In this document: positions 2,640 through 29,780 of the stretch, in pieces
How positions within the stretch are numbered: the stretch's first letter is position 1
Layout: every line of letters starts with the position of its first letter
Source of the DNA: a virus
Length of the DNA: 45,480 bases
Strand: one strand, 5' to 3'
Virus record (IMG/VR): IMGVR_UViG_3300031999_000049
Coordinates: 1-45,480 of that record
Position numbers and translations under genes: made by a program
Notes under the pieces: generated by a model
Told to the model about the DNA's origin: nothing
The model's database searches: none
What the model saw: the letters and a program-made list of their open reading frames with translations, nothing else

Positions 2640-2706
2640 TAGAAAGTATGGTGAGGTGAAGGTTTGTAGAAAGCACACTAAAGTGAAGGAGGAAGAAGAT
2701 GTGTGA
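2554..2706 (+). CDS. Small overlapping zinc-finger protein
   Basis: This is a 50-residue ORF with an excellent ribosome binding site (AAGGAGG, with the ATG at 2554). It contains CPLC near residue 13 and CRKH near residue 35, a C-X2-C / C-X2-H set typical of small zinc fingers, followed by a charged KVKEEE tail. It overlaps the end of the preceding gene by 86 bases and the start of the GroES-like gene by 8 bases, filling what would otherwise be a 59-base gap. The Shine-Dalgarno spacing and metal ligands argue for a real gene. Function unknown. Confidence 0.62.
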   Translation: MDTVQERQSKGLCPLCKEPLPKEVEIVNDRKYGEVKVCRKHTKVKEEEDV

Positions 2707-3166
2707 GTCGAAGTGCATTGAATGTGGCACAGAGTTAAAAGATATTGATTTAAGAAAAGTGGTTAATGGCACAATAGATGTGCCATTTGTTTGTTCTCAT
2801 TGTGGTTCGATTAAGTTTCCTTTTGAACCTACGAGGGATGTAGTATTTTTGTTGAGAGAACCAGCACCTGAAGTGTCGAAAGGTGGTATTTACTTAATAG
2901 AGGAAACGAACTTCGTTGGAGGAGGCCCAAGGACGTATTTACGAGGGAATAGCGCAAGAGTATTAGCTATTGGCCCAGGTTTTTATAATCCTAAAGGAGG
3001 ATTTATTCCTACTGAATTGCAGGTAGGACAGATAGTCCACTTCAACGTTAAGGTTCCGTGGCACATTGACCTTAAAGGGGATGATGGTAAAGAGTACCAC
3101 GTGGTTTATTGTGGAGAAAAAGACGTATGGTTAAAGAGAGATAATGAAGAAAAATCCCAAAGATAA
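2699..3166 (+). CDS. GroES-like co-chaperonin with N-terminal zinc ribbon
   Basis: The 155-residue product has two parts. Residues 1-45 carry two Cys pairs (CIEC, CSHC), a zinc ribbon. Residues about 48-150 resemble the GroES beta-barrel: RDVVFLLREP at the strand-1 position, then SKGGIYLIEE at the mobile-loop and hydrophobic position, then ARVLAIGPGF, LQVGQIVHFN and a closing EYHVVYCGEKDVWL, in the order seen in GroES. Phage co-chaperonins such as T4 gp31 replace host GroES so that the capsid protein can fold in GroEL, which fits its place beside terminase in a structural operon. The zinc ribbon is not part of classical GroES. Start chosen for AAGGAGG upstream. Confidence 0.72.
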   Translation: MCESKCIECGTELKDIDLRKVVNGTIDVPFVCSHCGSIKFPFEPTRDVVFLLREPAPEVSKGGIYLIEETNFVGGGPRTYLRGNSARVLAIGPGFYNPKGGFIPTELQVGQIVHFNVKVPWHIDLKGDDGKEYHVVYCGEKDVWLKRDNEEKSQR

Positions 3167-10281: not shown

Positions 10282-13161
10282 ATGTTTGGTGATACGCTGA
10301 ATACGATGAAGACTTTGAAAGGTTCGAAAGTTTTAAGAGAAGATGTAGTGATTAAGAAGAAATCAACGCTGATGGCTATCTTGGAAGCTGCGCAAGCCGA
10401 GGTAAAGATAGGCGGTGGTACGCAAGACATCGCTAGCGATAAAGACTTGGACAGAGACGTTAAAGTGCCTGAGAAAACCGTTGTCGACAAAGCTCCTGAA
10501 GTTAAAGGTGAACAGATGGACGGAGGCAAAATAGAGGGGCAAGACACGGTTAAGAAGGAAGGCAAAGAGAACGAGAAGAACGAAGCCAAAGTCAATGAAG
10601 GCAAGAAGGAAGACGAAGCAGCCGCAGCGGTAACTAAGTCAGCTGTGTCCTTATTGCGCAAGATACATAAAGCAGAGAACGTAGAGGCTCTTGAGGACAT
10701 AATGAATACGCTTGAGAAGTCCGCTACGAAAGGTAGCATCAGTTCAGAGCAAGAGACAAGACTGAAAGCAGCTTGGGCTCGTAGGAAAGAGGCTTTGAAA
10801 GACAATCCGAAAGCCCCAGCGGATGAACCGACGCAGGCTGAAGAGGATGCTATAGAGAAAGAAGAGCCTAAGGATGACACAGATGAGTCTTTTGCTAACA
10901 AGAGTATGTCACGCCCATTGAATGAATCGACAAGTATGGATGACATGATTAAGAAGTTAAGAGATGTCACCTTGTCAGTCAGTGAATCGGACAAAGTTGA
11001 CACTGACCAGAATCCGGGCAAAGAGGGTGGTGTTAAGACTGAAGGTGCTCCTGCGAAAGACCCGGATGCTAAGCCTAAGCAAGATGTTAAGAGCTCTGAT
11101 GCGCCTGTTAAGCAGGATACAGGGGCTCTCGACGTTGACAAGGAAGTTAAGGACACCGACCCCAAGCTGAACAAAGAGAATGTTAGCAATGAGGGAGAGC
11201 CGGGATTACAAGGCGGTAAGGCTCCTGTAGTGAAACAGAACACATCGGCCCTTGATGGCAACTCCGCTGACGTAAACTTATCTAAGGACGGGGTTAAGAA
11301 AGAAGAGAACATCGACAAGCTTGATGACAAGGGCAAAGAGACCGTTAAGCAGAACGTGGGTGCTTTGACTGATAGCAAAGAATCGAAAGTAAATGAGATG
11401 GCCATGATTAAGATTGACAATGAAGGACTAATGCAACTGGTAAGAAAAGCTCAAAAATATTTAAAGCGGTTAGAGGCAAGCACCCAGACAAGTGACAAAG
11501 AGTTAAAAAAGATTTATGATAAGGACGTTGAAGTTGTAAAGACTGCTTTAACATTTTTAGAGAAAGGTGATTTGAAAGGCGCCCAAAGTTTTTTGGAAAA
11601 GAATAGTCGTACTGATAGTCGCGGAAGAGACAGAGCTAGAGGTGCGGACTGGGCCGATATTTTATTGAGTGACTTGGAAGACTTAGTGAATAGTGCTTAT
11701 GAAAAGGCAATACAGCCGTATCAGAGTAAACTTGACAAATATTCGAAGACACTCGATGACCCTCGGACTGGACGTAAGTACGATACTGAAGAATCGAAAG
11801 TCCCTGACGTTACTAGTGACAGCATAGAGGCTATTACGAAGGCGCTATATGAAATGGTTGATGCAGACAAGGAAGAGAAAGCTGAGAAGAAAGATGGTAG
11901 AGAGTATTTTGGTATGTCAGGAAAGGAAACTCTTTACGCTGCTATTGACAAAGGCGAAGGAGCCGGTGAGGGGGAGGAAGGAGTAGAAGGCACTGAAGTA
12001 AAGAACGTGAAGTCCATAAAAAGTATAACTGTGTACGATTCAATCGGTAATGAAGTGGCTAAGCTACAGAACGATGGCGAGATGCCGAATGCTAAGTTTA
12101 TATCCTTGGCCGCAGAGAATGCTAAGCTGGATTCGGTTGGCTTTCAGATTCTGCAGGGTTTAGGCATATTGAATACAGAGGAAGAAGAGCAGCCGGTTGA
12201 CCAGCCTGCTATGAAAGAGAAAGGTGAAGAAGAAGGCGCTACTTCCGATGTAACCAATGACGAGAAGGAAGCTTCGAAGGCAACGGCAGCTGATCAGGAT
12301 GCGGAGCCTGTTGAACAGCATGAGAGCAAGAAAGGTAAGGCAGTTAAAGGGAAGATGAATGAAGGTACGAAAGAGTTAAAAACTGGAGAAGATGTAGCAC
12401 AGTATGTTGTTGATAATTTAAAGTTCCCTTCTGACAGCGAAAATGGCTATGTAGTGTATAAAGGAGTAAAGTATTCTGACATAAAGAGTAGAGGGCACTC
12501 CACAGGCGAAGTAGCATTAAAGTTAGGAAAGGCGTTGGGAATTGACATGAGTAAAGCTGTGGATTTGAAGTATATGAAAAAGAACCTACTTGAATCCACA
12601 GTGAATGAAGGCATAGCTGAGAATACACAGATAGCTTTGTCTCATGCCATCACCAGCCTTGACAATTCAAGTAAGTTCGTGGCTCAAGGATTGAAAGCTG
12701 AAGGCGTTATGAAGAAGGACCAGCTTGAATTAGCTATTAAAGAACTTGGAGAAGCTGAAGCGCAAATCAAGATGGTGCTAGGAACGAACGCACAGCCTGT
12801 GGCATTACCGCAGGAAGCAGCCCCAACGTTAGAACCGACCGCGGCAGCAGAGCCCGCTCTAGAGGCTCCTGCGGAAGGTGGAGAAGGAACTGAGGGGTAT
12901 GAATCAAGAATGAATGAGGACAAAGGTGCACCAATTTATTTGCGGGATTTGAATCAGAGGCTCCAGAGTACATACACAGAAGACATAGAGAAATTAAGAG
13001 CAAAGATGGGGAATATAGAAGATAAAGACATAATTGTAGGTTATTTTATAGAGCCAATTCAGGTAATGGAATCTAAAATTCCTGATGTTACTGCAGACGA
13101 CATAGACACCATAACGAAGAAGCTGTACGAGAAGTATATTAAGAAGACGGAGGCAAAGTAA
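10282..13161 (+). CDS. Head-core polyprotein 1 with ESKVNE-type linkers
   Basis: This 959-residue, very acidic Lys/Glu-rich protein starts after AGGAGG. Residues about 60-370 are low complexity. Distinct folded-looking segments follow: a helical one (about 370-480), an SDI-type repeat at about 504-527 that recurs at the extreme C-terminus, a segment with ITVYDSIGNEVAKLQ (about 580), one with ENGYVVYKGVKYSDIKSRG (about 714), and a helical one (about 780-835). The segments are separated by linkers with EAKVNE (101), ESKVNE (367), KMNEG (about 691), ESTVNE (771) and ESRMNE (874). These end in hydrophobic-X-Glu like T4 gp21 cleavage sites. In T4 the same interval encodes core proteins cut during maturation. 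I infer a processed internal head protein; an unprocessed scaffold is the alternative. Confidence 0.6.
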   Translation: MFGDTLNTMKTLKGSKVLREDVVIKKKSTLMAILEAAQAEVKIGGGTQDIASDKDLDRDVKVPEKTVVDKAPEVKGEQMDGGKIEGQDTVKKEGKENEKNEAKVNEGKKEDEAAAAVTKSAVSLLRKIHKAENVEALEDIMNTLEKSATKGSISSEQETRLKAAWARRKEALKDNPKAPADEPTQAEEDAIEKEEPKDDTDESFANKSMSRPLNESTSMDDMIKKLRDVTLSVSESDKVDTDQNPGKEGGVKTEGAPAKDPDAKPKQDVKSSDAPVKQDTGALDVDKEVKDTDPKLNKENVSNEGEPGLQGGKAPVVKQNTSALDGNSADVNLSKDGVKKEENIDKLDDKGKETVKQNVGALTDSKESKVNEMAMIKIDNEGLMQLVRKAQKYLKRLEASTQTSDKELKKIYDKDVEVVKTALTFLEKGDLKGAQSFLEKNSRTDSRGRDRARGADWADILLSDLEDLVNSAYEKAIQPYQSKLDKYSKTLDDPRTGRKYDTEESKVPDVTSDSIEAITKALYEMVDADKEEKAEKKDGREYFGMSGKETLYAAIDKGEGAGEGEEGVEGTEVKNVKSIKSITVYDSIGNEVAKLQNDGEMPNAKFISLAAENAKLDSVGFQILQGLGILNTEEEEQPVDQPAMKEKGEEEGATSDVTNDEKEASKATAADQDAEPVEQHESKKGKAVKGKMNEGTKELKTGEDVAQYVVDNLKFPSDSENGYVVYKGVKYSDIKSRGHSTGEVALKLGKALGIDMSKAVDLKYMKKNLLESTVNEGIAENTQIALSHAITSLDNSSKFVAQGLKAEGVMKKDQLELAIKELGEAEAQIKMVLGTNAQPVALPQEAAPTLEPTAAAEPALEAPAEGGEGTEGYESRMNEDKGAPIYLRDLNQRLQSTYTEDIEKLRAKMGNIEDKDIIVGYFIEPIQVMESKIPDVTADDIDTITKKLYEKYIKKTEAK
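10582..12918 (+). repeat. ESKVNE linker set in polyprotein 1
   Basis: The clearest copies are EAKVNE 10582-10599, ESKVNE 11380-11397, ESTVNE 12592-12609 and ESRMNE 12901-12918. Each lies at a boundary between unlike segments. A separate internal duplication begins at 11791 and 13069 (ESKVPDVTSDSIEAITK and ESKIPDVTADDIDTITK). Confidence 0.8.
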
Positions 13162-13570: not shown

Positions 13571-14653
13571 ATGAGTGCTGATGTACCAAAGCTACCTTTA
13601 GAAGAATTCGAAATACCGGCGACTGACTCTAAGTCTGAAGCGGGGCTTAAGAATGAGTATAAGGGTTCTCTTGACTTTGGTATAATCGGTAGTGGTCAGG
13701 CTGGTGGAAAGATAGCTAAGAGCTTCTATGGCGTAGGTTATAAGAAGGTCTTAGCTATCAACACCGCCGAAGCAGACTTGAATCCGCTAGAGCTTCCGAA
13801 AGAGCAGAAGATGCGCATTGGCAATCTGCAGGGCTCTGGAAAGGATATGAATGTTGGAAGGAAGGCAACCGAGGAAGCGTATCAGCATATCTTTGACGCT
13901 GTTAAGAAGAGCTTTGGCAAGGTAGATAAGATAATCATCACCCTTGGCTTCGGTGGTGGGACAGGCGCTGGAAGCTTACAGACACTAATAAGCATATCGC
14001 AGGAGTACTTACGCTTGCTAGGCAATCCGGACTATATGACCGATGTGCTGGTAGTAGGAGCATTGCCTTCAGCGGGTGAGCTAAGGAGTGATAGGATAAG
14101 ACAGAATACCGAGGCAGCAAAGAAGCAGATTTATGCGCTTACAGATGCTGGGAAGGTAGGCCCAATTATCCTAATGGACAATAGCAAGATAGAGCAGCTT
14201 TATAGAGGCATACCGCCTAATAAGTATTGGCCAGCGATAAATGATTCGATAAGCATGCTGTTTCAGATATTCAATAACCTAAGCACACAGCAGAGCAACT
14301 ATCACTCGTTTGATGCGACAGATTATCGAGTACTTTTAAGTCAGCCCGGCATAGCGGTAATGGGTGTTACGAGAGTGCCGGAGAAAGATTTAATGGTAGC
14401 GCAGGCCTTGCAGGATAACTTTAAGAAGACGCTATTGAATAGTGCGATAGACTTTAAGACAGCGAAAGCTGCTGCTTGTGTATTCGTTGTGGATGAGAAG
14501 CTAATGGGAACGATAGCGATGGATGTGTTCAATTATGGTTTCGATACAATCGCTAATCTTATTGGTGGCGCTACAGTGTATCGAGGCTTGTATGATAATA
14601 AGGGCAATGGCATAAGGGCATATACGCTGATATCAGGTTGTAAAGCAATATAG
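13571..14653 (+). CDS. Tubulin/FtsZ-superfamily GTPase
   Basis: The 360-residue product has the diagnostic GTP-binding loops in order. The T1 loop is GIIGSGQAGGKI (about 37-48). The T3-like loop is INTAEADL. The tubulin signature is LGFGGGTGAGSL (about 134-145). The T6-like segment is RQNTEAAKKQ. A T7 catalytic loop SFDATDYRVLL has two Asp residues spaced as in FtsZ (D-X-X-D), followed by a GIAVMG strand as in FtsZ. This implies a polymerising GTPase that hydrolyses GTP at subunit interfaces. Phage tubulins (PhuZ of phiKZ-like phages) centre the phage nucleus and move capsids. This one is placed between head-core and protease genes and lacks an obvious acidic tail. It is full length, with AGGAG upstream. 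Confidence 0.85.
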   Translation: MSADVPKLPLEEFEIPATDSKSEAGLKNEYKGSLDFGIIGSGQAGGKIAKSFYGVGYKKVLAINTAEADLNPLELPKEQKMRIGNLQGSGKDMNVGRKATEEAYQHIFDAVKKSFGKVDKIIITLGFGGGTGAGSLQTLISISQEYLRLLGNPDYMTDVLVVGALPSAGELRSDRIRQNTEAAKKQIYALTDAGKVGPIILMDNSKIEQLYRGIPPNKYWPAINDSISMLFQIFNNLSTQQSNYHSFDATDYRVLLSQPGIAVMGVTRVPEKDLMVAQALQDNFKKTLLNSAIDFKTAKAAACVFVVDEKLMGTIAMDVFNYGFDTIANLIGGATVYRGLYDNKGNGIRAYTLISGCKAI

Positions 14654-14666
14654 GAGATAAGAAGAG

Positions 14667-15041
14667 ATGGACAAGACGATATTTGGTTATGAAGTTGCGA
14701 TAGATTTGATAAATTGCAATGAGAGGATAAAGATTGAAGAAGAGCTACATAGATACGCGAAGGAACTTTGTGAGGTAATTGACATGAAGCCATTTGGTAA
14801 GTGCCAGACGCCTTACTTTGGTGAGAAGAGTGAGATAACGAAAGGCTATTCATTATTGCAGTTCGTGGAGACAAGTTCGATAACCGGACACTTTAGTGAG
14901 CACTATAAGAGCGCGCATATAAATATTTTTAGCTGTAAGAAGTTTGATATGGAGAGAGCGACTTTATTTACTAAGAAGTTTTTTGGAGGCAAACTAATTA
15001 CAGAAAATTGCCTCGTTCGATATTGCACAGATAATAATTGA
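14667..15041 (+). CDS. speD: SpeD-like pyruvoyl decarboxylase homologue
   Basis: The 124-residue product matches the small bacterial S-adenosylmethionine decarboxylase (SpeD) fold. The start FGYEVAIDLINC resembles the SpeD N-terminus. VETSSITGHF aligns with the ESHISIHT segment, keeping the Ser that self-cleaves to form the pyruvoyl group and the later His. INIFSC aligns with the IFTC segment that carries the catalytic Cys. The Glu before the cleavage Ser is replaced by Thr. Canonical enzymes make decarboxylated AdoMet for spermidine. Some small SpeD homologues are known to have become arginine or ornithine decarboxylases, so the substrate is uncertain. Its place inside the head operon suggests polyamine supply for DNA packaging, an inference. 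Confidence 0.7.
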   Translation: MDKTIFGYEVAIDLINCNERIKIEEELHRYAKELCEVIDMKPFGKCQTPYFGEKSEITKGYSLLQFVETSSITGHFSEHYKSAHINIFSCKKFDMERATLFTKKFFGGKLITENCLVRYCTDNN

Positions 15042-15053
15042 CGGAGGTTTATA

Positions 15054-18000
15054 ATGGGCAAACCTATTCAGATGTCTTTAAATGAAAGAGAGATAGTTAA
15101 GTATCAGAAGCTTAACGAGAGTGAGTCAGGCAAATTGTTCGATGGCGTACTCTGTCGTGTTAAGTATCCGATATATTGGTTCGGACAGCTGAATAGGAAC
15201 AATCGTATGTATGAAGAGCAGATAATGGATAAGCTCGAAGGCGACAAGGACATCAAAGAGGCCATTGAGAAACGTTCGAGCTTCATGCAGGAAGAGCATC
15301 CTTTGCTTGATAATAAGACCAGAACAGCCCATATCGCTGGTGTTCTTGTAGGTTTTACGCGTGAGTCAATTGACGGTAAGAAAGCCGGCTTTGCTGTGAT
15401 GGATGTGCTTGATACTCCGATGGGAAGGATAGTCGACACATTGATTAAGGCTAATTGTGGTATAGGCACATCAACGAGAGCCGATGGTGCTGTTGAAGAA
15501 TGCATGGATGAAGGAACGCAGAAGAGGTTCCATAAGGTCATCACTGAGAGCTATAAGTTCTTTGCTTTAGACTTCACCGCTGAACCGAGTACGTATGGCT
15601 CATATCCGCAAGACGTTCAGAGAAGTGTTGTTGACATAATCAAAGAGAGTGTAGGCAATGGTAAGTTGGATAGAGAGACAGGCCTTAGACTACTTGAAAG
15701 CTTGAATGCCCCTGAAGCTACTAGCCTGAATGAGACAATCAAGAGCTGCTGCGGCAAATGCCCCGAAGCTTGCAATAAGATATTGAAAGGCACCTGCGAT
15801 TGCAGTGAAGAGAAGGAAGAAGATAAATGCAAAGGATGTGGGGCTAAGCTAGACAAAGGTGCATGTTTAAAGTGTGATTACGACAATGAAGGAAAGATGA
15901 AAGAGTCCAAAGTGAATGAAGAAGAGAAAAAAGATATAGATGCTAAGTTTTTGTATTCAATCGCTCACAAGCCGGAATACAATAAAGGTACGTGGTGGTA
16001 TAACCTTACGACAGGAGAGATACAAGTTGGTAAAGACTCTGCAAGTGCACATAATGACGAGGAGTTTAAAGACATAGCACATAAGCCGGGTTGGATAAAC
16101 GGAAGAGTTTTTAGTTGGAATAACAAAAATATTTTGATAGTCTATTATCCGAAAGATAACGTGACTAGTACGATGCTTTTAGATTTAGACAAAAAATTAG
16201 AGAATGAGCTTGGATTAAAGATTGACTATGCTATAAATCAGAAAGGGGAAGACATATCTCACTTGTTGGAATCGCTAATTTCAAGAACAAATATAAAAGT
16301 GCGCGAAGATGCAGAGCAGTCTGTGCAAGTTCAAAAAATAGTCAAGGACATAGTGAGTAATTATAAAGAGATTACTGGGCAAGAGATTAAAGACGTGATT
16401 AGCAAGTCAGGAAAGTTCACTGACCGTATTGTCGATGCTTGGGAAGACGCAAGAGATTACATCGAGGAGAAATACAATATAACAGATAGTTCGCTATTGG
16501 ACATAATCGCTAGAGATTTAGACACTGCGTTGACAGCACGCATTAAGAACGAGTCCAAAGTGAACGAAGAGCAAGGGACTATAAGCTTCGATGGCAAAGC
16601 TTATAAGTGGATGAATGAATCCAAAGTGAATGAAGAAGACATCGTAAAACCGTCGCTCTCAGCGGGTGAAAAAGTTAAGACTCCGAAAGGTGTCGGTATA
16701 GTCGTATTTGTAGGACGATTTGATTCCTATGTAAAAGTTGATGGTAAGCAATATGAGTTTAAGAATAAAGAGTTGATTAAAGAATCCAAAGCAAATGAAG
16801 ACATCAATATCAAAGTAGGTGACATGGTTGAAGTGCTTGATAGCGGTGCTGTAGCCGCTCCAGCCTCGAAGGTAACGAATACGAAAGAGACCTTGAATGC
16901 TAATGGCACAAAGACAGTACTTGTCCAGACCGAGAAGGGTGGAGAGACTTGGTTTGATTCGACAAAGGTTAAGCTGAATAAGTTTAATGAGAGTATTGGA
17001 GAGTCTAAGCTTAATGAAGAACGCTATAAAGAAATAGCTAGGGATTTGAATAGTGCGTTGCAAAGGATTGACATGGCTTCAGCGGCCGCACCTCGTCTAA
17101 GAGGATTGAGAGATGAGCTTGGAAAAGCTTTTGCTGATATAGAAGGTTATGTGCATAAAGCTTTGAGTAGGTTAGCTGATGCTGAGGAATACGTAGAGGA
17201 AAAGAATGAATCTAAGCTTAATGAAGAGGACGAAGACAGAGCCCTTATGAATAAGCTATTCAAAGACGCTCATGCTTACTTTGATAAAATGAAGATACAG
17301 CCCGTTGAAGACGACATTATGGATTACGTAATTCAGGGATATGCTGAAGCAAAAGGAACGAATTACGATAAGGCTGCATCGTTCGTCGAAAGGTATTGCT
17401 CTTATGAAGATGAGGAAGAATGCGCTGAGAGCTTTAAGAAAGGCGACAAGCTTGAGATGAATGTACATGGCAAGACTGTCAAAGCTGTGGCTCTTGACGA
17501 CTCTCATAAGATAGGGCAGGTTGAAGTGGTTAAGATAGCCCAGGAAGGGAATAAAGAGCCGGTGACCGTTATGGTTGGTAGGGTTAAGAAGCTTGGAGAG
17601 AGTGCATTGAATGAAGCTAAGTTCCTGCTTTGGGATAAGGCCGCAATGAAGGTGTTAACAAAGAAGAACGGAAGCGTTCTTGAATTTAGTTCAACGATGG
17701 AAGCTAGAAAGCATGTTGAGGATTTGCTTGGCGAGCTTGAGAGATATGAGATACTCGCTAGAACGAATACCTCTCCAGTACAGAGGGAGGCGGCTATGGT
17801 AGGTTCTAGAGAAACAAAATTGACTGAAGAGGAAGGACGCTATAAGAACAATCCCGCAGGAGATAAAGAGTTTGTTAAGAAGACCGGAGGGAGGTTTAGT
17901 GAGCCTGACGATAAGAACAATCCCGACACAGTTAAGGGAAATGAGAGCAAAGAGGCTAAAGTGAATGAGGCGGAAAAGAAAGATAGGATTGATGAGTTAT

Positions 18001-19082
18001 GGAAGTTAGTTGATAATTTTTCACATGGGAATCCGTCAAGCTTAGTTGATTTAACTAGATTAAGTGACTTTGTTGAAGTAGCGAGAAAGAAAGGATTTAA
18101 AGACAAAGAGATATGCCTTGCATTAACTCACTATTTTAATAGAGATTTACTTAGAGGGGCCCAGCTTGGGTTAGAGTCTTGCCCTGAAGAATCTCGACTT
18201 CATGAGGGCTTTAACTTCGACAAAGACCTTGACAAGTTTATGAGCATAATCAAAGGCCTTATCAGTGAAGATGAAGTTAAGTCGTTATCTGAATCCAAGA
18301 GCATTAGCGAAGGAGTCTCTGACCTATTAGCTAAACGCAAGCATGCTCAAGCCATTATTGAAGCTGAAAGAGATAAGGCCATAGAGATAGTTACTTTGTA
18401 TGAAACAATCATCGGGGCTCAAGAGAAAGCGCTTAAAGAGGCCAAAAATGAAGTGAACTATGAAGAGTTGGCAAAAGATTTACAGCCTAAGACCAAAGAG
18501 GTATTCGTAAAGTTCATGAACGCTCGTTGGCCTGATAGTGGCCCAAAGTACGATATTGGCTATGCAGAGACTTGGCTAGAAAGATTTAAGCGTGGAGAGG
18601 AATGGGAGTTCTCAGATAGCCAAAGTAGAGACGTGTTAAAAGGCTTAGGTGATTACGCTAAGAAAGAAGAGGGAGTAAGAGAATCAGAAAAGAAAGCTCT
18701 TATCACTAAGGTGCATGAAGAGCTAAACAAAGTCTTTAGCACTAAGTTAGCTGAACAGAAGGAAAGCTTTGAGAAGCAAACCAAAGCCCTTAATGAATCG
18801 CATGCAAATGAAATCTTTCAACGCACTATCGTTGATAGAAAAATAGAGAAGTCTGGGTTGACTTTACCTGAGCCTGTCGTAGCACTACTACGAGAAGCCA
18901 AAAGCGAGGAGCAGGTTGATTCAATCATTGGTCGCTATCGTCTGAACTTGAATGAGGCTTTGCTGCACTCCGGCAAGCCACAAGGAATGACAGTAACGGT
19001 CAACGAACCAGGCAAACCGACAGACTCGGTTATGCAGGCGTCTCTTGACGAGACAAAGAAAACGTTGAAATTTATGAAATAG
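15054..19082 (+). CDS. Prohead protease-scaffold polyprotein with inserted modules (polyprotein 2)
   Basis: This protein has 1342 residues. About 1-205 match a T4 gp21-type prohead protease: YPIYWFGQLNRNNRMYEE, then MQEEHPLLDNKTRTAH with the likely catalytic His, then CGIGTSTRADG with a candidate catalytic Ser. A Cys-rich zinc segment (about 228-280) follows. Then modules appear between ESKVNE-like linkers at residues 284, 500, 522, 577, 650, 719, 849 and 967, including an SH3/KOW-like domain (about 530-575; KVKTPKGVGIVVFV). The C-terminal ~320 residues are coiled-coil, scaffold-like, with an inserted domain (about 1140-1205; FVKFMNARWPDSG and YAETWLERFKRG). T4 encodes protease and scaffold as separate proteins of about 210 and 270 residues, so about 800 residues are extra. 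It directly precedes the major capsid gene. Confidence 0.75.
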   Translation: MGKPIQMSLNEREIVKYQKLNESESGKLFDGVLCRVKYPIYWFGQLNRNNRMYEEQIMDKLEGDKDIKEAIEKRSSFMQEEHPLLDNKTRTAHIAGVLVGFTRESIDGKKAGFAVMDVLDTPMGRIVDTLIKANCGIGTSTRADGAVEECMDEGTQKRFHKVITESYKFFALDFTAEPSTYGSYPQDVQRSVVDIIKESVGNGKLDRETGLRLLESLNAPEATSLNETIKSCCGKCPEACNKILKGTCDCSEEKEEDKCKGCGAKLDKGACLKCDYDNEGKMKESKVNEEEKKDIDAKFLYSIAHKPEYNKGTWWYNLTTGEIQVGKDSASAHNDEEFKDIAHKPGWINGRVFSWNNKNILIVYYPKDNVTSTMLLDLDKKLENELGLKIDYAINQKGEDISHLLESLISRTNIKVREDAEQSVQVQKIVKDIVSNYKEITGQEIKDVISKSGKFTDRIVDAWEDARDYIEEKYNITDSSLLDIIARDLDTALTARIKNESKVNEEQGTISFDGKAYKWMNESKVNEEDIVKPSLSAGEKVKTPKGVGIVVFVGRFDSYVKVDGKQYEFKNKELIKESKANEDINIKVGDMVEVLDSGAVAAPASKVTNTKETLNANGTKTVLVQTEKGGETWFDSTKVKLNKFNESIGESKLNEERYKEIARDLNSALQRIDMASAAAPRLRGLRDELGKAFADIEGYVHKALSRLADAEEYVEEKNESKLNEEDEDRALMNKLFKDAHAYFDKMKIQPVEDDIMDYVIQGYAEAKGTNYDKAASFVERYCSYEDEEECAESFKKGDKLEMNVHGKTVKAVALDDSHKIGQVEVVKIAQEGNKEPVTVMVGRVKKLGESALNEAKFLLWDKAAMKVLTKKNGSVLEFSSTMEARKHVEDLLGELERYEILARTNTSPVQREAAMVGSRETKLTEEEGRYKNNPAGDKEFVKKTGGRFSEPDDKNNPDTVKGNESKEAKVNEAEKKDRIDELWKLVDNFSHGNPSSLVDLTRLSDFVEVARKKGFKDKEICLALTHYFNRDLLRGAQLGLESCPEESRLHEGFNFDKDLDKFMSIIKGLISEDEVKSLSESKSISEGVSDLLAKRKHAQAIIEAERDKAIEIVTLYETIIGAQEKALKEAKNEVNYEELAKDLQPKTKEVFVKFMNARWPDSGPKYDIGYAETWLERFKRGEEWEFSDSQSRDVLKGLGDYAKKEEGVRESEKKALITKVHEELNKVFSTKLAEQKESFEKQTKALNESHANEIFQRTIVDRKIEKSGLTLPEPVVALLREAKSEEQVDSIIGRYRLNLNEALLHSGKPQGMTVTVNEPGKPTDSVMQASLDETKKTLKFMK
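15903..17969 (+). repeat. ESKVNE linker set in polyprotein 2
   Basis: Eight copies: 15903-15920, 16551-16568 and 16617-16634 (ESKVNE), 16782-16799 (ESKANE), 17001-17018 and 17208-17225 (ESKLNE), 17598-17615 (ESALNE) and 17952-17969 (EAKVNE). Most are preceded by Asn or Gly and followed by Glu. Copies use different synonymous codons, so conservation is at the protein level. Confidence 0.9.
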
Positions 19083-19092
19083 GAGTATTATC

Positions 19093-22000
19093 ATGGCTGA
19101 AACTTTAGACATTAGAAAGCTAGCCGAAGCGCGTATGGCGGAATTCCAAAACCGCAATAAGGCCGCTAATGCTCGTTGGCAGCCGTATATCTCTTTGGTG
19201 GAAACCCACTATAAGAGCGAAGGCCGCGAACTTTTGGAATATCAAAAGGCAAACATTTTTTGTAATTAAAAGGTGTCATAGCAGGGTAACCTGCTAAAGT
19301 AAACAGGGTGAATTCAGGGAACGCTAAAAGGAAAGATTGAAATGAAAACGTGCGAGTGTGGTTGTGGTAATCAAGTGAACGTAGGAAGACGCTTTGTCCT
19401 AGGGCATTCAAACTTTGTTCTTCGTAGAGGTCGTACTTACGAACAGATTTATGGTAAGGAAAGAGCAGCTACTGTTATAGTTAACTGCTCCGGACACGTT
19501 AGTTCTAAGAAAGGTAAGACCTACGAAGAGTTTTATGGAGAAGAAAAAGCGTCTAAGATAAACCAAAAGATAATCACTTCAAGATTTGACCGCTTTCCTA
19601 CTGAAGAGCGAACGAAGATGGCAAGCGAAAATGCCAAGATAGGTGCTTCTCATATAAAGGGGAAGACTCTTGAGCAGTTTCATGGGGTAGAGAAAGGAAG
19701 AAAGCTTAGAAGTGGACGTAGAGATGCAATGATATATCGTTTAGAAAATGGAACTTCATATCTTGGGACGAAAAGAGGCTATGCTTTTGGCGTACGCTTT
19801 GATTCGTCTTGGGAAGAGCGTTTATTATTGCAGTTAAACAAGTTCGATTTGGCTGGGCAGGGTTTTAGTATTGAACGCTGCCATTACCGAATTGAGTACT
19901 TCTACGGCAAATTGAGGGTTTATTTACCCGATTATCAGCTAAAACAGTTTGGGCACGTTGTGGCAATAATCGAAGTAAAATGCGAGCAAAGGCTATTGAC
20001 GGTAGAAAAAGAATTAGCCCCGTACAAAATGCGTGCATTAAAGAGATTTTGCCAGGATATGCTTATAACGCCATGCTTGTATACCGAACAGCACTTTCCT
20101 AATGCCAATCCTGAGCCAAGCTCCGTGAATGAATTGATTCAGCTTACCCACAAGAGGTTTGCTGAATATGTAGCGGAGAAGGTGCACAGACTAGAGAGTG
20201 AGGACAATCAAACCAATAACCTCTCAGTAGCGCAGGAGGTGCCTAATGTATAGTTTATTGCTTGCATTGGCTCTCTTGCTCGAAGCGCCCTGCCCCTTGC
20301 ATGGCAAGGGTGAAGATATAGTCGGAGCCATTAGAAATAATGGAACTACTCGCGCCCAGGTATGCGACAACTTGTTTGACTTCTATGTCATCGGGAAGAT
20401 GGGTCAAGGGTTGTCAGAAGCTACTACGTCAGATGCAATCGCGTTTGCACGTCAGATGCTTCCTACGATTCCCGCTCTGCTATCCAGCTTGGTCGCTGAC
20501 CAGGTAGCCGTTGTTCAGGCCATTGACAGACCGCAGGCACAGATTTACTACATGAACGTGAAAGCTTCGACAGCTCGCGGTTCTATCACGGTTGCTCAGC
20601 AGTTAATTGGTGCTACGACTGGCCATGCGACTAATGAGGCTTCTCGGTTGTATGCTTCGGACCAGGTTACTGACGAAACTTTCGCGACAGGTGACGGCTC
20701 GACTAAGGATTATGTGGCCGTTATTCTGGCTCATCACCCGGTCATCACAGGTTCGGTTGTTGTGTATTCAACAGCCGTAGGTGGGGCAACTGTTGAAACC
20801 TTAACTGATAATGGTGCGGGCGTATTGGTGTCCGACTTGTCAGGCGGTGGCAATGGTACGGTTAACAATTATACGACCGGTTCCGTTACCGTGCATTTCA
20901 AGAGCAATGTTGCGAACACTGCGAAAGTGTATGCTACCTATCGTGCTAATGTAGAACTTGACACAACAGCTATTGGCGGTTTGGACTTTGAAGTTACTTC
21001 CAGCAACGTCGATGCTATGGTGTTCCCGTTAAGTAATTTTAGCGGCCTACAAGCGAGAGCTTGTTTGAATTAAAAGGGTTAATTGAGGGAAATCTAAAAT
21101 GTTTAAGAAAACAGACGAATCATTGGCAAAAATGAAAGCAAGCAAGGCAAGGTACTGGAGCAGCCCAGAGAATCGTAATGCGCAGTCTTTGCGTAGGAAA
21201 GCTTATTTTGCCAAAGAAGAGAATCGTTTGTTGACAAGTATAGCCACTAAGAAAGGAATGGCAAACCCCGAATTTAAGAAAAAGTTTGCGATTGCAATTA
21301 CAAAGAGCCACGCTTCACCTGAGTACAGGGCAAGACGTTCGGTTATATCTAAGCAGGTATTTCAGAGGGAAGATGTACAAAAGAAGCACAAGGTAGCGTG
21401 TAAGAATCGCAAACGCGAACCTCATACCCAAGAGACAAAAGAGAAACAAAGTATATCAGCTATTAAGACTTGGCAAGATAGCGAAATAAGAGAAAAGAGA
21501 ATGTTTAGCTGGAGTAAGAGCAGAAAAATGAATAATTGGGAAAAGATAGTCGACGATTTACTCCAAGCTGTGTTGCCTAGTGCGTATAGATATACTGGAA
21601 ACTTCTCTGAAAGCACTTATGGTTTGTATCCTGATTGGAAATCGAACAAGGGTAATATGCTAATCGAGCTATTTGGTGAGAGATGGCATAAGCCTCAAGA
21701 TGAACAGGATAGGGCTAATTGCTTTAAACAATTTGGGTATGAGACTTTAGTTATTTGGGGAAGAGAGCTAAAAGACATAGAGACATTAAAGAGCAAAATC
21801 CTTTTGTGGCATACTAAACATCATGACAATCCTCAGCCAAGCCCAGTGCAGTCTGGGAAGGTTCAGAGACTAGCGGAGGACGATACATCGTCCTTAATGA
21901 CCGCAAGCAGGGAGAAAAGCATATGAGAAAGTTAATACTCGCTTTTCTACTCGTAGTGCCCTTTACCCAATTAGCAGTGGGTAGTGATATAGTCCAACCC

Positions 22001-22678
22001 TCTATGAAAATAGAGGAACAAGTTGTAAAGTTGAATTACACTGTGTTTTCTGCGATTAACTTGCAGAAGATTCATGGAATGGTTTTGGCCGATGAAGGCA
22101 TGAAGTTCTGCACGCAGGAGATTAAGTTTGCGATTGACCAAATCGTATTAAAGTACGCTTTGGCAGCTGCGCAGAGCTCCGGTGGTGCGAACTCTGGCGT
22201 TTCCATTGGTGCTTTTAGCACGGTTATGGATTCTGGTCAAGAATGGCTATGGAGAATCAACGAGTTTAAACGCTACGTCAGTAAGGCGTCTATGGCAATC
22301 TTTTCGAAGACCTTACGTGCACAGGGTAACGTTATCGTTGGTGGCGTGAATGTTTGTTCCTTGATTGAGCAGTTGCAGGACTTCAAAGGCGCTGCAGGTC
22401 TTGGTACGACACCGCCTTCCGGCCCTCACGTATTTGGTACATTAGGCAACCGTATGGTAATCTGCAATCCGTTCTATGATGCTAGCCAGTATGTGGTTCT
22501 GCATCGCGGTAGCAATTACTTGTACGCAGGTTTGGTGTATGCACCTTACGTGCCTCTGTATGCTACAGACCCTGTGACTCTTGCAGACTTGACAACTCAG
22601 CGTGGCTTTATGAGTCAGGCAGCTGTTAAGACTGTGAATGCCGGAATGTTTTGTTGGGGCACAATTTCTGGATATTAG
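19093..22678 (+). CDS. Major capsid protein, three exons split by two group I introns
   Basis: The exons are predicted as 19093-19256, 20353-21029 and 22023-22678. Together they give 1497 bases, 498 residues plus stop, in frame across both junctions, which read KANI-AQVCDNLFDFYV and DAMVFP-F-VKLNYTVFSA. The protein has features of T4 gp23-like capsid proteins: an N-terminal helical start, VCDNLFDFYVIGKMGQGLS, the QAIDRPQAQIYYMNVKAS segment that follows a run of small residues, and a C-terminal KIHGMVLADE helix region. Expression follows AGGAG at 19081. It is immediately downstream of the protease-scaffold gene and ends 12 bases before a strong terminator. ATGs at 20246 and 21923 only extend exons 2 and 3 into the introns and are not real starts. 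Confidence 0.85.
19257..20352 (+). mobile_element. Group I intron 1 in the capsid gene
   Basis: P1 is a nine-pair helix between the exon end and intron start (19253-19261) and AAAAGGTGT (19268-19276), with a U-G pair at the splice site after T19256. P2 is AGCAGG-GTAA-CCTGCT (19280-19295). Core elements are P AATTCAGGGAAC (19311-19322), Q AATCCTGAGCCAAGC (20107-20121), R GTGCACAGACTAGA (20182-20195) and S AAGATATAGTC (20313-20323). P pairs with Q (P4) and R with S (P7). A P8-like hairpin (about 20292-20310) and P9 (20328-20343) follow, and the terminal G is 20352. It carries an endonuclease ORF that extends into the core. Confidence 0.9.
19342..20253 (+). CDS. Intron-1 homing endonuclease, PD-(D/E)XK type
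   Basis: The 303-residue product begins with CECGCG. It then has three copies of a motif of the form G-(R/K)-T-Y-E-(Q/E)-(I/F)-Y-G-(K/E)-E-(R/K)-A at about 30, 55 and 112, probably DNA-binding repeats. The C-terminal nuclease part has SSWEERLLLQL (about 154), YLPDYQL (about 193) and IIEVK (about 210), a PD-(D/E)XK site. It is the same architecture as the gene at 1109. It lies between intron elements P and R, and its last 70 codons run through Q and R, so translation and intron folding compete. Spread of intron 1 into intronless capsid genes is its likely role. Confidence 0.8.
   Translation: MKTCECGCGNQVNVGRRFVLGHSNFVLRRGRTYEQIYGKERAATVIVNCSGHVSSKKGKTYEEFYGEEKASKINQKIITSRFDRFPTEERTKMASENAKIGASHIKGKTLEQFHGVEKGRKLRSGRRDAMIYRLENGTSYLGTKRGYAFGVRFDSSWEERLLLQLNKFDLAGQGFSIERCHYRIEYFYGKLRVYLPDYQLKQFGHVVAIIEVKCEQRLLTVEKELAPYKMRALKRFCQDMLITPCLYTEQHFPNANPEPSSVNELIQLTHKRFAEYVAEKVHRLESEDNQTNNLSVAQEVPNV
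21030..22022 (+). mobile_element. Group I intron 2 in the capsid gene
   Basis: P1 pairs CCGTTA (21026-21031) with TAGCGG (21040-21045), putting a U-G pair at the splice site after T21029. P2 is ACAAGC-GAGA-GCTTGT (21049-21064). Core elements are P AATTGAGGGAAA (21081-21092), Q AATCCTCAGCCAAGC (21828-21842), R GTTCAGAGACTAGC (21861-21874) and S GTGATATAGTCC (21984-21995). The P/Q pair differs from intron 1 at matching positions (TCAGG/CCTGA against TGAGG/CCTCA), a compensatory change. P9 is CCTCTAT-GAAA-ATAGAGG (21999-22016, with an extra A). The terminal G is 22022. Confidence 0.88.
21099..21926 (+). CDS. Intron-2 homing endonuclease, Vsr-like
   Basis: This 275-residue protein has a basic N-terminal ~140 residues with repeated short helices (SPENRNAQ, ASPEYRARR, HTQETKEKQ) like NUMOD-type DNA-binding repeats. 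The C-terminal domain resembles very-short-patch-repair (Vsr/EDxHD) endonucleases: NWEKIVDDLL, then PDWKSNKGNMLIELFGERWH with Asp, Glu and the WH pair, then GYETLVIWGREL. It is a different nuclease fold from that of intron 1. The ORF ends beyond Q and R, overlapping the ribozyme core. It probably promotes homing of intron 2. Confidence 0.78.
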   Translation: MFKKTDESLAKMKASKARYWSSPENRNAQSLRRKAYFAKEENRLLTSIATKKGMANPEFKKKFAIAITKSHASPEYRARRSVISKQVFQREDVQKKHKVACKNRKREPHTQETKEKQSISAIKTWQDSEIREKRMFSWSKSRKMNNWEKIVDDLLQAVLPSAYRYTGNFSESTYGLYPDWKSNKGNMLIELFGERWHKPQDEQDRANCFKQFGYETLVIWGRELKDIETLKSKILLWHTKHHDNPQPSPVQSGKVQRLAEDDTSSLMTASREKSI

Positions 22679-26027: not shown

Positions 26028-29000
26028 ATGGCTGAGTTTAGAATTAAAGATAACTTTTTAGTTGGCATGCTTGAGAAAGCACGTCAGGCTGACTTTAGTG
26101 GCATAGTCTATGGCCACAAAGTTAATGAAGAGACGAAAAAGACCTTTGGTTATAGACCTTATAAAGGTGGAGCAGGGCCATCAGAAGAGCAGGTTAGAAA
26201 GAGGAATGAAGCTTTGCTAAAGGCTCTCCAAGCTAAAGGTATTAAGGCAAGTTTAAAAATGATTGATATAGGAGCTGATGAAGAGATTCAAACTGTTGAG
26301 GCGAATGGACGACAGGCCGGGTTTGATAGGTGGGGTTATAACAGTGATGACAGCGACACTTTAGACCAAGCTAGCTTTGAAGAGGCTTTAGCTTACTTAA
26401 TGGGAAAAAATGAGTCGAAGGTTAATGAAGAAACCATAGACGAGTTAGCAGACCTTGGCGGAATAGCTGAGGCTCTTGCGAAAGAAAACGATATGTCAGC
26501 TGAGAAAATCAAAGAGGGTGCACAGGTCGAGTTTAAAGAGCACAAAGAGTCGATTGGCGGTGACATCAAGATAGCGGCTAAGATAGCTATTGACCATATG
26601 AAGGAAGACCCTGAGTACTACGCTAAGCTTGCTAAGATGGAAGCTGGTAAGAACGCGGAAGGGTCTGCAACGCCTTCAGTGGTAGAGAGCAAAGCGCATG
26701 AAAGCATTAAAAAGATTTCAGTAGAAGAAGTTAAGAAGCTATTTAAAAAGGTAGATGCTAAGTATGCCGAGCTTTTAGCGAATACTTGTGGTTCAAAAGA
26801 AGAGATTATTGAAAAAGGCAAAAGTGCCGGTTTAGAAATAAGTGAATCTAAAGTAAATGAAGACCGTGATAAAGAGTTTATTGCCATATATCAAGAGTTA
26901 CTTGCTAAAGGGTTAGACAAAAATGCAGCATTTGGTATGGCAGTGTTACGAATAGCAAAGAAGTATAACATCACAGAATTTTCTAAAGATGAGCCTAAAA
27001 AGATGACCGAATCAAAGAATGAACCAGATTACGCTAAGCAAAATGGCAATTACATCTACGTTCTATCAACTGATGAAGATTCTCATGAGAACGTGTGGAA
27101 GCGCAATAGAAATTCCTTTAAGAAAGATGGCAAGTGGGTAGCAGGCACCGTTGTCGAGATAGCTAACGACCGTGGACGAGTAGTATACATTTTGCGGGCT
27201 GACGGTTCGCTCCGGAAAGCTCACTACGTCGAGAAAGACAAGAATTTTCCAATTGATGAACCCAGCAATGAGAGCAAAGAAAACGACATGTTATCAAGTG
27301 GCTTTTCCGTAGGACAGAAAGTTAAGACGCCAAAAGGTGTGGGTGTTGTTACTAAGCCTACATTTGATGGCTATAATAAGGACGTAGTTTCGGTTAATTT
27401 ACCTGACGGTAATACTCGCTTTGATGTTAAGGATGTTGAGATTATTGAATCCGCAGTGAATGAAGCCTTCGACATCAAAGTAGGTGATGGTGAATGTGCT
27501 ATAAATGAGATGACAGGAGAACAGTGGGATGGAGAGGTAGAAAAAATAAATAAACTGCCCAAAGAGCAACAAGAGAACGCATGGGAAGATTTGTATAAGC
27601 GCTTGTATCAAAGCACTAAAGCCGCAATGGAGAAGAAGGGGTTAGACCCAAAGACGGCAAGACCTAAAGAAAAGAACGAATCAGAAGTGAATGAAGAAGC
27701 GATGGTTTTTAATCCGTACGAGAGAAAGGACTCTGTTCAAGCTCTCGCGGCTATACGTAGTGAGGCTGAAATACCGAATAATGTTAGACCTACATTATCG
27801 AAGCATCTTACGTTCTCAGAAGGAGCGCATAATAAGTATCATTATTTCGCGTTGTTTAATGTTGGTGATGGACATTGGATAGCTGCAAATGCTTATGCTC
27901 GCATAGGCTATACTCCACAGGTGGATGTGTTCTATTCTGGAAATGATGAGAATGTAGCAAAAGAGGCTTATCAGAAGAAGCTCGAAGGTAAGTTAAGCAA
28001 GGGCTATGAGGTCGATGAGTCAACGCTTAATGAAAAAATAGTGAAGGCAGGCAGCAAGTGGCAGGTTCAATCGCACAAAGGAAAGAACCTTGGCACTTTC
28101 GATACGAAGGAAGAAGCTAAGAAAAGATTAGGGCAGGTAGAGTTCTTTAAGCATAAGAATGAATCCAAAGTGAACGAAGCTTCGGCACATATCTTTAAGA
28201 TTGGTGAGAAAGTAGTAATGCAGAGTGGGTCTCCTATTAGCGCAAGATTTAGAGGAATAGGCGAAGTTATAAAGGTCACTCCGTTGCCTAATGTTTCGGG
28301 TGGGTATGAGATAGAAGTAAAGGATAGGAATGGAGAGATTATAAAGACGCATGATAACTTTATTAAGTTGTCATCTATGAATGAAGATGTAGCACCGACA
28401 GGTCAGAATCCGAATAAGTATCAGTCCATTGCTCGTGGTATTGCTGATGAGAACGAAGCTAAGAAAATCGCTATGGAAAAGAAAGGAACTGTTCAGAAGG
28501 ACGACCAAGACAAAGAAGGCAAGCGCTTTATGGTTGTGGTGAAAGAGAGTACGAATGAAGAAGAAAAGAAACCGGTAATAGCTTTATTCCCTAAAGCTAT
28601 TGATTTTCGTTATATTCAAGGCAAGGCTAGCTATAAGCAAGGAACTGAAGAGTATAGACTGTTAGATGGTATGAACGAAGAGCTTTGGGATAAGTACCTT
28701 AATGTAATGGCAGGCAGCGGAACAACCGTTGAGTACGATAGCGTTAACGATGTATTCAATGTTGAGAATATGACAGGAGTTGGTGAGTCTAAGATAAACG
28801 AAGTTAGCTTTCCGCTATGGGCAATTATAGATAGGAATGCTGAGCATGGACAGGAGTACCTTAAAGACAAAGATGGTCAGCTCTTGACTTTTTATTCGAA
28901 GGCAGAAGCTCGCAAGCATATTGTTGATGTACTTGGTCCTGAAAAAGGTCGCTATCAGATTATGCCGATGAGTGATGCAGCTAGCCAAGTGGAAGCAAGA

Positions 29001-29780
29001 CCGGTAGGCGAATCTAAAGTAAATGAAGAGAAGCATGAGGAAGTAAAGGTATTCGAGCTTCCTAAATGTGATTTTTGCGCTCAAGATGGTAAAGACAAAG
29101 AAGCCATGTACGATGGAAAGACGAACATTGGTCCTTGGGCTAATATGTGTAAAGAGCACTTTCAGCAGTATGGCACAGGTTTGGGGTTAGGAAAAGGCCA
29201 GAAGCTTATTAAAGATGCAACTGCAAAGAATGAGGGTGTTCTTGATAAGCATTATGGGTCACGTGATGAGAAAGATTTAATACAAGCCAAGGCTAGACTA
29301 AAGAGCTTGGAAGGAACACATGAGTTCGCTTCTGAGAAAGAGCACCTTAGAAAGGTAATCGGAGAGCTAGAGCAGAAGACCAAGCTAGCTGGCCCAAGTG
29401 TGCATAGGTCAACTGGTCCTATGGTTGAAAAGTTTCTTTTAGCTGGAAGCCTTATTGATAAGCTAAAAGTGGAAGGTATAAATGAACAGGAAGAAAAGTT
29501 CCTACAAGAGTTTGAAGCAGAATTCAGCCACTTGACTGAAGATGCTAAGAAGGCTTTAGAACTTTCAGCCACTAAGTTGAAAGAGGAAGCAGCTAAAATG
29601 GTTAGCGCGCCTTATGCGGTAGGTAATGTTAAGAAAGGTGATTCGGTTAGGATTGAAAACGTTGACAGCCAGTCAGGACATTTGTCCTTTGATGTAGTAG
29701 AATCAGCGACTGGGAAAGTGGTTGGAAGATTATCGTTTGATAGCTCGGCAGAGGCGAAGGAGGCCGGCTGGCAAGTTTAA
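26028..29780 (+). CDS. Head polyprotein 3 with ESKVNE-type linkers
   Basis: This 1250-residue protein is built as a chain of small domains. The linkers ESKVNE, ESAVNE, ESEVNE, ESTLNE and ESKINE lie at residues 129, 273, 474, 551, 664, 712, 920 and 995. Modules include a helical one like DUF5661 (about 170-215; IDHMKEDPEYYAKLAKME), an SH3/KOW-like one (about 425-470; KVKTPKGVGVVTKP) related to one in polyprotein 2, a WQVQSHKGKNLGTFDTKEEA module (about 675-710), a FPLWAI module (about 926-990) also related to polyprotein 2, and a zinc module with CDFC and CKEHF (about 1010-1065). Several resemble small proteins that I have seen encoded alone in other phages and bacteria. I infer processing into internal head proteins. 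Confidence 0.62.
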   Translation: MAEFRIKDNFLVGMLEKARQADFSGIVYGHKVNEETKKTFGYRPYKGGAGPSEEQVRKRNEALLKALQAKGIKASLKMIDIGADEEIQTVEANGRQAGFDRWGYNSDDSDTLDQASFEEALAYLMGKNESKVNEETIDELADLGGIAEALAKENDMSAEKIKEGAQVEFKEHKESIGGDIKIAAKIAIDHMKEDPEYYAKLAKMEAGKNAEGSATPSVVESKAHESIKKISVEEVKKLFKKVDAKYAELLANTCGSKEEIIEKGKSAGLEISESKVNEDRDKEFIAIYQELLAKGLDKNAAFGMAVLRIAKKYNITEFSKDEPKKMTESKNEPDYAKQNGNYIYVLSTDEDSHENVWKRNRNSFKKDGKWVAGTVVEIANDRGRVVYILRADGSLRKAHYVEKDKNFPIDEPSNESKENDMLSSGFSVGQKVKTPKGVGVVTKPTFDGYNKDVVSVNLPDGNTRFDVKDVEIIESAVNEAFDIKVGDGECAINEMTGEQWDGEVEKINKLPKEQQENAWEDLYKRLYQSTKAAMEKKGLDPKTARPKEKNESEVNEEAMVFNPYERKDSVQALAAIRSEAEIPNNVRPTLSKHLTFSEGAHNKYHYFALFNVGDGHWIAANAYARIGYTPQVDVFYSGNDENVAKEAYQKKLEGKLSKGYEVDESTLNEKIVKAGSKWQVQSHKGKNLGTFDTKEEAKKRLGQVEFFKHKNESKVNEASAHIFKIGEKVVMQSGSPISARFRGIGEVIKVTPLPNVSGGYEIEVKDRNGEIIKTHDNFIKLSSMNEDVAPTGQNPNKYQSIARGIADENEAKKIAMEKKGTVQKDDQDKEGKRFMVVVKESTNEEEKKPVIALFPKAIDFRYIQGKASYKQGTEEYRLLDGMNEELWDKYLNVMAGSGTTVEYDSVNDVFNVENMTGVGESKINEVSFPLWAIIDRNAEHGQEYLKDKDGQLLTFYSKAEARKHIVDVLGPEKGRYQIMPMSDAASQVEARPVGESKVNEEKHEEVKVFELPKCDFCAQDGKDKEAMYDGKTNIGPWANMCKEHFQQYGTGLGLGKGQKLIKDATAKNEGVLDKHYGSRDEKDLIQAKARLKSLEGTHEFASEKEHLRKVIGELEQKTKLAGPSVHRSTGPMVEKFLLAGSLIDKLKVEGINEQEEKFLQEFEAEFSHLTEDAKKALELSATKLKEEAAKMVSAPYAVGNVKKGDSVRIENVDSQSGHLSFDVVESATGKVVGRLSFDSSAEAKEAGWQV
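26412..29027 (+). repeat. ESKVNE linker set in polyprotein 3
   Basis: Copies are at 26412-26429, 26844-26861, 28161-28178 and 29010-29027 (ESKVNE), 27447-27464 (ESAVNE), 27678-27695 (ESEVNE), 28017-28034 (ESTLNE) and 28785-28802 (ESKINE). Shorter relatives (HKVNE near 26115, SSMNED near 28373, EGINEQ near 29476) also end in hydrophobic-X-Glu. Confidence 0.9.

Follow-up and report, generated by a model that had tools for sequence, protein, structure and literature searches.

Linker-separated modules between a prohead protease and a scaffold-like domain: a probable cargo polyprotein in a T4-type head-gene region

The DNA analysed here (the window, 45,480 nucleotides) is the IMG/VR virus record IMGVR_UViG_3300031999_000049, positions 1 to 45,480. 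Its open reading frame (ORF) at 15054-19082 is a single intact frame of 1342 amino acids (aa), with a prohead protease at the N-terminal and a scaffold-like domain at the C-terminal. In this large tailed phage, the ORF is probably a modular head-assembly and cargo polyprotein with L/VxE linkers at which its own protease would cleave it. The more specific proposal is about evenly balanced: the modules would be effector cassettes cut at a standard linker, injected with the DNA and traded at that linker, the cleavage site being also the cassette joint. The protease–scaffold fusion itself is not new; what is new is the insert between the two parts and the behaviour of this insert. Three ORFs of the window are named by slot: slot A (10282-13161), slot B (the protease ORF) and slot C (26028-29780).

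By its sequence, the N-terminus of slot B belongs to the T4 gp21-type (Peptidase S77) prohead protease family. A head maturation protease match covers aa ~31-229 (phrog_207, E 5e-17), and the tblastn search with the window protease revealed matches in Listeria LIS04, Bacillus SP-15, Streptococcus GXN1 and Pelagibacter HTVC008M. The Pfam Peptidase_S77 cut-off was not reached by the window protein, and was exceeded by relatives at 36-45% identity. The predicted catalytic His, Ser and Asp residues are present: H82, S140 and D173 do not vary across two small alignments (A1 and A2) and form a candidate triad, with the same H...S...D order as in SPN3US gp245 and T4 gp21 (PMC5694885). The sequence SLNE↓T (aa 223-226; arrows mark putative cleavage points) is a possible self-release site of the protease. 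A search of the viral contig collection with the whole slot B protein gave zero matches; the relatives (L numbers below) surfaced via the protease alignments A1 and A2. Cys-rich stretches follow the protease at the equivalent place in L092, L093 and L115.

The last ~255 residues of slot B form a helical domain common to the close relatives (alignment A8); for example, the C-terminus of L094 is 34% identical (E 1e-7). It is called scaffold-like for its position, its helical composition and its fusion to the protease. Exon 1 of the capsid gene starts at 19093, just past slot B, and no separate scaffold gene intervenes. T4 has gene 22 at the matching position. The domain thus shares with T4 gp22 a helical chain placed between protease and capsid protein; the hhalign comparison of A8 with stand-alone gp22-type core proteins (A10) gave a probability of 0.4, which is not significant. 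The initial annotation had placed protease and scaffold-like ends in one chain at 15054-19082; these coordinates proved exact, and the phrog_207 match and the shared C-terminal domain bear out the two ends. Other candidate relationships of the C-terminal domain were rejected. The hhalign profile comparison with the SP-15-type scaffolds was not significant, and weak links to L062 and L043 from hidden Markov models were confounded by coiled-coil bias. A lambda Nu3-like internal start for a separate scaffold was also rejected, as no conserved ribosome-binding site with a start was found near the domain.

Ten linker copies split the ~850-aa middle of the slot B protein; most read ESKVNE or ESKLNE, with the usual form ESK(V/L)NE↓(E/A/D). 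Copies were counted with the pattern [DE][STA][KRA][LVIA][NHTS]E; an eleventh, looser linker (SESKSISE) ends at aa 1086. The shuffled slot B sequence contained 0.05 copies on average and 1 at most (1000 shuffles). Within the window, slots B, C and A have 10, 7 and 2 copies, respectively, and the linker is absent from the 10,699 aa of the remaining ORFs outside these three polyproteins. A similar restriction was found in the relatives. The 179-kilobase (kb) contig of L115 has seven copies of the motif ES[KE][LIVT]xE in slots A and B and one elsewhere in 54,788 aa; in other relatives, this motif is restricted to slots A-C and one neighbouring ORF. The linker-to-linker segments are mostly 47 to 130 aa. 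AlphaFold models showed mixed helix and strand stretches parted by poorly predicted ones; the best predicted region of the insert is aa ~726-785, and domain edges are not definable. These models do not support one continuous middle domain.

Nor is the middle constant among the relatives. The slot B ORF has 611 aa in L014, 621 in L098, 661 in L013 (650 from the likely start), 846 in L092, 872 in L093, 1013 in L012, 1235 in L115 and 1545 in L094. The protease and the C-terminal domain align among these close relatives, whereas the middles mostly do not. Common modules also occur out of order. For example, the module at aa 1135-1220 of the window sits in the insert of L092 (38% identity, E 2e-8), and the module at aa 229-297 of L098 was found at aa 495-559 of L012 (54%). 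The earlier reading of a modular rather than continuous middle, with an insert that varies among relatives, is thus well founded: ten linkers separate segments that differ from one relative to another, and the ORFs range from 611 to 1545 aa, contrary to the refuting case of relatives with one constant insert length. An insert had been proposed at about 800 residues; the insert is there, and its size is nearer 850, to which the scaffold-like domain adds its own internal module (aa 1135-1220). The slot B insert itself gave zero tblastn matches in isolated phages at E values up to 1, and module-based scans returned only L103, the L092 contig again, or nothing.

The fusion of protease and scaffold-like end had been taken as a special trait; this was over-read, and the fusion is common in uncultivated phages and also occurs in the isolates SP-15 and LIS04. 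SP-15 (568 aa), LIS04 (559 aa) and GXN1 (558 aa) each combine the protease with a coiled-coil C-terminus in a single chain. The protease alignment recovered 80 environmental loci, and in 64 of these the ORF at the protease is 430 aa or longer (median 518); the fusions of other phages and of most environmental relatives are usually ~500-590 aa. The protease and the core protein are separate in T4, and also in Ochrobactrum phage OC and HTVC008M. The best relative among genome contigs is the 179-kb phage-like contig (L115 and L117-L125), with 11 tRNA genes and, by eye, T4-like replication genes. It is assigned to the metagenome-assembled genome of Candidatus Borrarchaeum weybense (Asgard archaea), in which it may be mis-binned.

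Modules are also shared between slots. Counterparts of the window slot A are present in slot A of relatives, and the window slots B and C have two modules in common (42% and 46% identity). Alignment of 24 slot ORFs gave ~20 cross-slot matches at E<=1e-3, including L098 slot A with L115 slot B (65%, 7e-30), L115 slot A with L012 slot B (59%, 3e-15), L094 slot B with window slot C (54%, 6e-10), L012 slot A with L098 slot C (57%, 6e-9), and L115 slot B with window slot C (45%, 5e-7). The initial annotation had considered one ORF only; this holds for slot B, and proved too narrow, since three window ORFs have the linker and modules recur across slots.

An exchange between near-identical strains was found in L104, a 9.4-kb contig with 98% identity to the window over 7.1 kb. 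In its slot C ORF, one segment is replaced by unrelated sequence (Table 1), with both flanks of the replacement identical or nearly so; an extra segment is located near the C-terminus. The left junction shows no DNA difference through the second linker codon (GACCGAATCAA); the window then continues with AGAATGAA and L104 with TAAATGAA, so that the linker is TESKNE in the window and TESINE in L104. At the right junction, the linkers are ESTLNE (window) and ESINE (L104), just ahead of a module of like type. Judged by these sequences, the linkers look like joints for module exchange between phages.

Most modules match nothing, and none was found to match known head proteins in Pfam, PHROGs or PDB; comparison with solved structures likewise gave no match. 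The modules of known families include DUF5661 and phrog_23287 in slot C of the window, the phrog_3684 type in slot C and in L094, and DUF7249 in L094; a DUF5419 match in L104 is just below the Pfam cut-off. A homologue of the phrog_23287 module is encoded by Arthrobacter phage Ranunculus (gene 103, 99 aa), and one of the L104-only segment by Mycobacterium phage HaveUMetTed (gene 88, 52 aa, covered almost whole). Therefore, some modules are free-standing small genes (52-99 aa) elsewhere. A cargo function of the modules is likely. As a separate observation, the 1412-aa slot A ORF of L097 (5735-9973) contains a Cys cluster (CPHRKRGKPCGYC) of radical-SAM-type resemblance by eye, with no Pfam match.

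Table 1. Positions of the slot ORFs, their parts and the capsid gene in the window.
Feature	Position	Strand	Residues and remarks
Slot A, 959-aa ORF	10282..13161	+	two linkers (EAKVNE, ESKVNE); a few ORFs past the portal gene
Prohead protease domain, gp21/S77 type (predicted)	15054..15731	+	aa 1-226; phrog_207 E 5e-17, tblastn, invariant columns
Cys-rich, zinc-ribbon-like segment	15732..15920	+	aa 227-289; from sequence
Ten linkers of slot B	15903..18206	+	end at aa 289, 505, 527, 582, 655, 724, 854, 925, 972, 1051
Segment 2	15921..16568	+	aa 290-505; low-confidence model: alpha/beta to ~aa 395, then helical
Small KVKTPKGVG module	16635..16799	+	aa 528-582; paralogue in slot C ORF (26028), 46% identity
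Segments between linkers	16800..17615	+	aa 583-655, 656-724, 725-854
Module	17616..17828	+	aa 855-925; paralogue at aa 926-1000 of slot C ORF (26028) (42%), also in L104
Segments between linkers	17829..18311	+	aa 926-972, 973-1051, 1052-1086
C-terminal helical, scaffold-like domain	18312..19079	+	aa 1087-1342; directly precedes the major capsid protein gene
Module inside the scaffold-like domain	18456..18713	+	aa 1135-1220; homologue in L092 insert, 38% identity, E 2e-8
gp23-like major capsid gene, middle part	20246..21073	+	Pfam Gp23; predicted maturation site GLSE↓ATT at 20411-20419
Slot C, 1250-aa ORF	26028..29780	+	seven (to eight) linkers; DUF5661, phrog_3684-type and phrog_23287 modules
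Slot C segment exchanged in L104	27024..28034	+	aa 333-669, replaced by ~122 unrelated aa

The three slots lie in a T4-type head region, with a gp20-like portal gene at 6587-8437 and the gp23-like capsid gene just downstream of slot B. A predicted (L/I)xE↓(A/T)T site is conserved ahead of the mature region in all the capsid proteins of the family that were checked (the window, L012, L092, L093, L094, L097 and L098); for example, the window has GLSE↓ATT, L093 and L098 have LFE↓ATT, and L092 has VLNE↓ATT. This site fits the L/I-X-E specificity of gp21 (PMC9026906). The capsid gene is split across 19093-22678 (exon 1 from 19093 to ~19255, the middle at 20246-21073, the end to 22678), with intron-type ORFs at 19342-20253 and 21099-21926 and a group I intron at 21664-22016 (Rfam, 51.5 bits). 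The L012 capsid gene also looks interrupted, and that of SP-15 has an endonuclease. Other genes of the window include a Tubulin/FtsZ-family gene beside the head genes (13571-14653; Pfam Tubulin 2e-9) with a weak match to phage PhuZ, an S-adenosylmethionine decarboxylase gene (14667-15041; Pfam 2e-12) immediately before the protease ORF, and a Cpn10/GroES-like ORF (2699-3166; Pfam 5e-6), possibly a gp31-type co-chaperonin for capsid folding. Near-identical amphipathic N-termini (e.g. MKKLLESLLEQDIFKPPTEEEL) occur on several small ORFs (L094 12-2280 and 17459-18621; L108 6099-7645) and are reminiscent of capsid targeting sequences; the window ORFs at 24895, 25601 and 29790 start similarly.

In the polyprotein proposal, the protease and the scaffold-like end would carry the whole chain into the prohead core, so that the slot B modules would reach the core by fusion and without a targeting peptide of their own. 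The activated protease would then cut the ESK(V/L)NE linkers, free itself and take the scaffold part to pieces, with about ten small modules set free inside the shell. Some or all of them may remain in the head along with the DNA and enter the next host by injection, in the manner of the T4 internal proteins. Slots A and C would supply more modules with the same linkers, and would need another signal, perhaps their N-termini. Linker cleavage is proposed because gp21-type proteases have an L/I-x-E specificity (T4 gp21 cuts after L/I-X-E; PMC9026906) and because of the capsid sites of this family, which the linkers fit only in part. Retention and injection are proposed from the identity and turnover of the modules, and the modules may have an anti-host function. 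In T4, gp21 trims the internal proteins after their entry into the core; they are then injected, and some of them inhibit host restriction enzymes (PMC9026906, PMC12373910). Moreover, segments of mostly ~50-130 aa would suit passage through the portal, as argued for T4 IPI (PMC9026906).

Several observations weigh against this proposal. The P3 residue is V or A in half of the linkers (V in many, A in one), and P1' is mostly E or D, unlike the capsid site. The protease ORFs of L092, L098 and L094 have few or no ES-type linkers. Bare L/I/V-x-E was found near 33 of the 60 BLAST-defined module starts, against a background of 45% (p 0.08), and family-wide [LI]xE had no association at all with BLAST-defined module edges; the ES-type linker was associated with module ends only (p 0.018 before correction). 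Bare [LIV]xE is uninformative on module edges because the slot chains are too rich in Glu. The strain-level swap was found in slot C and not in the protease ORF; it was not seen in slot B because L104 does not cover that ORF. The AlphaFold confidence was low in both runs, which used few or no homologues (mean predicted local distance difference test score, pLDDT, 48.6, and 52.0 for segment 2), and the structure prediction suggested by the initial annotation, at a mean pLDDT of 48.6, neither refuted nor proved separate domains. Finally, the T4 core proteins are cut into many fragments, which are mostly expelled (PMC9026906).

The last point leads to the main rival, in which the modules are core filler. 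They would enlarge the prohead core for head size or volume, be cut at the linkers and be expelled like T4 gp22, gp67 and gp68, whose fate (PMC9026906) is the precedent. The location of one module inside the scaffold-like domain agrees with this, as do the many slot B segments that are short, charged and of low predicted order. However, filler would have no need for recognisable domains that are stand-alone genes elsewhere (DUF7249, DUF5661, phrog_23287, DUF5419), nor for modules found repeatedly in three ORFs and swapped between near-identical strains. Core filler is considered rather unlikely. It is improbable that the chain acts whole as an uncut polyvalent protein, the linkers being only flexible joints and recombination sites. 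The linkers are rich in Glu, Ser and Lys and lie at swap junctions, and phage polyvalent proteins with 2-15 domains are known (PMC5512222); however, judging from its residues, the chain starts with an active-looking protease, of a family that cuts after L/I-x-E and whose T4 member gp21 is itself processed, and a chain of 1342 aa with its scaffold could hardly exit the portal. There is less chance still that the modules are structural parts of the head (inner-shell, portal-core or DNA-organising domains) remaining in the capsid. Giant phages do retain large internal protein masses (PMC5694885), whereas the modules turn over fast between close strains, which structural parts are not expected to do, and the lack of known head protein matches noted above also argues against it. 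An artefact, in which neighbouring genes were fused by an assembly or reading error, is hardly credible in view of nine independent close relatives with intact protease-to-scaffold ORFs (611-1545 aa) and of the long ORFs at the protease in 64 of the 80 wider loci.

A large number of small phage genes without a known function may act when the DNA enters the cell. If the polyprotein proposal is true, these chains would directly list effectors delivered from the head, with linker-to-linker as the reading rule. It would also represent a cut-to-order polyprotein in a T4-type head, with a logic comparable to that of eukaryotic RNA virus polyproteins, and a natural route for loading and exchanging scaffold-linked cargo.

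Among the known systems, no description of a prohead protease as a cargo polyprotein was found in the open-access PMC literature, and several systems share part of the arrangement. In the phiKZ/SPN3US giant phages, a glutamate-specific prohead protease, many processed head proteins and an ejected protein mass are similar to the features considered here; however, their sites are S/A-x-E or A-x-E, processing is mostly removal of N-terminal propeptides, and no serial cargo polyprotein was found for them in the same literature. Polyvalent proteins of phages and conjugative elements (Iyer et al. 2017, PMC5512222; e.g. P1 DdrB) are multidomain chains that are likely packaged in the head, and their embedded peptidase was proposed to release the parts. 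Slot B likewise combines several unrelated domains and an embedded peptidase in one phage chain; whereas their peptidase is an MPTase (PMC5512222), that of slot B is a prohead protease fused to a scaffold-like end, with repeated linkers, and neither MPTase nor other named polyvalent domains gave a Pfam or NCBIfam match. Thornevirus SP-15, LIS04 and Streptococcus GXN1 have the same N-terminal protease, coiled-coil C-terminus and adjacent capsid gene, but no module-and-linker insert, and their C-terminal homology to the window family is not significant. The T4 head core (gp21, gp22, IPI-III and Alt) has a gp21-type protease, a capsid L/I-x-E site, genes between those of the portal and the capsid protein, and small variable cargo, as in the window. 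In T4, however, these are separate genes, and each internal protein has its own N-terminal targeting peptide; whereas the slot B modules are internal, preceded at most by linkers, and many of them are arranged in series within one protease–scaffold chain.

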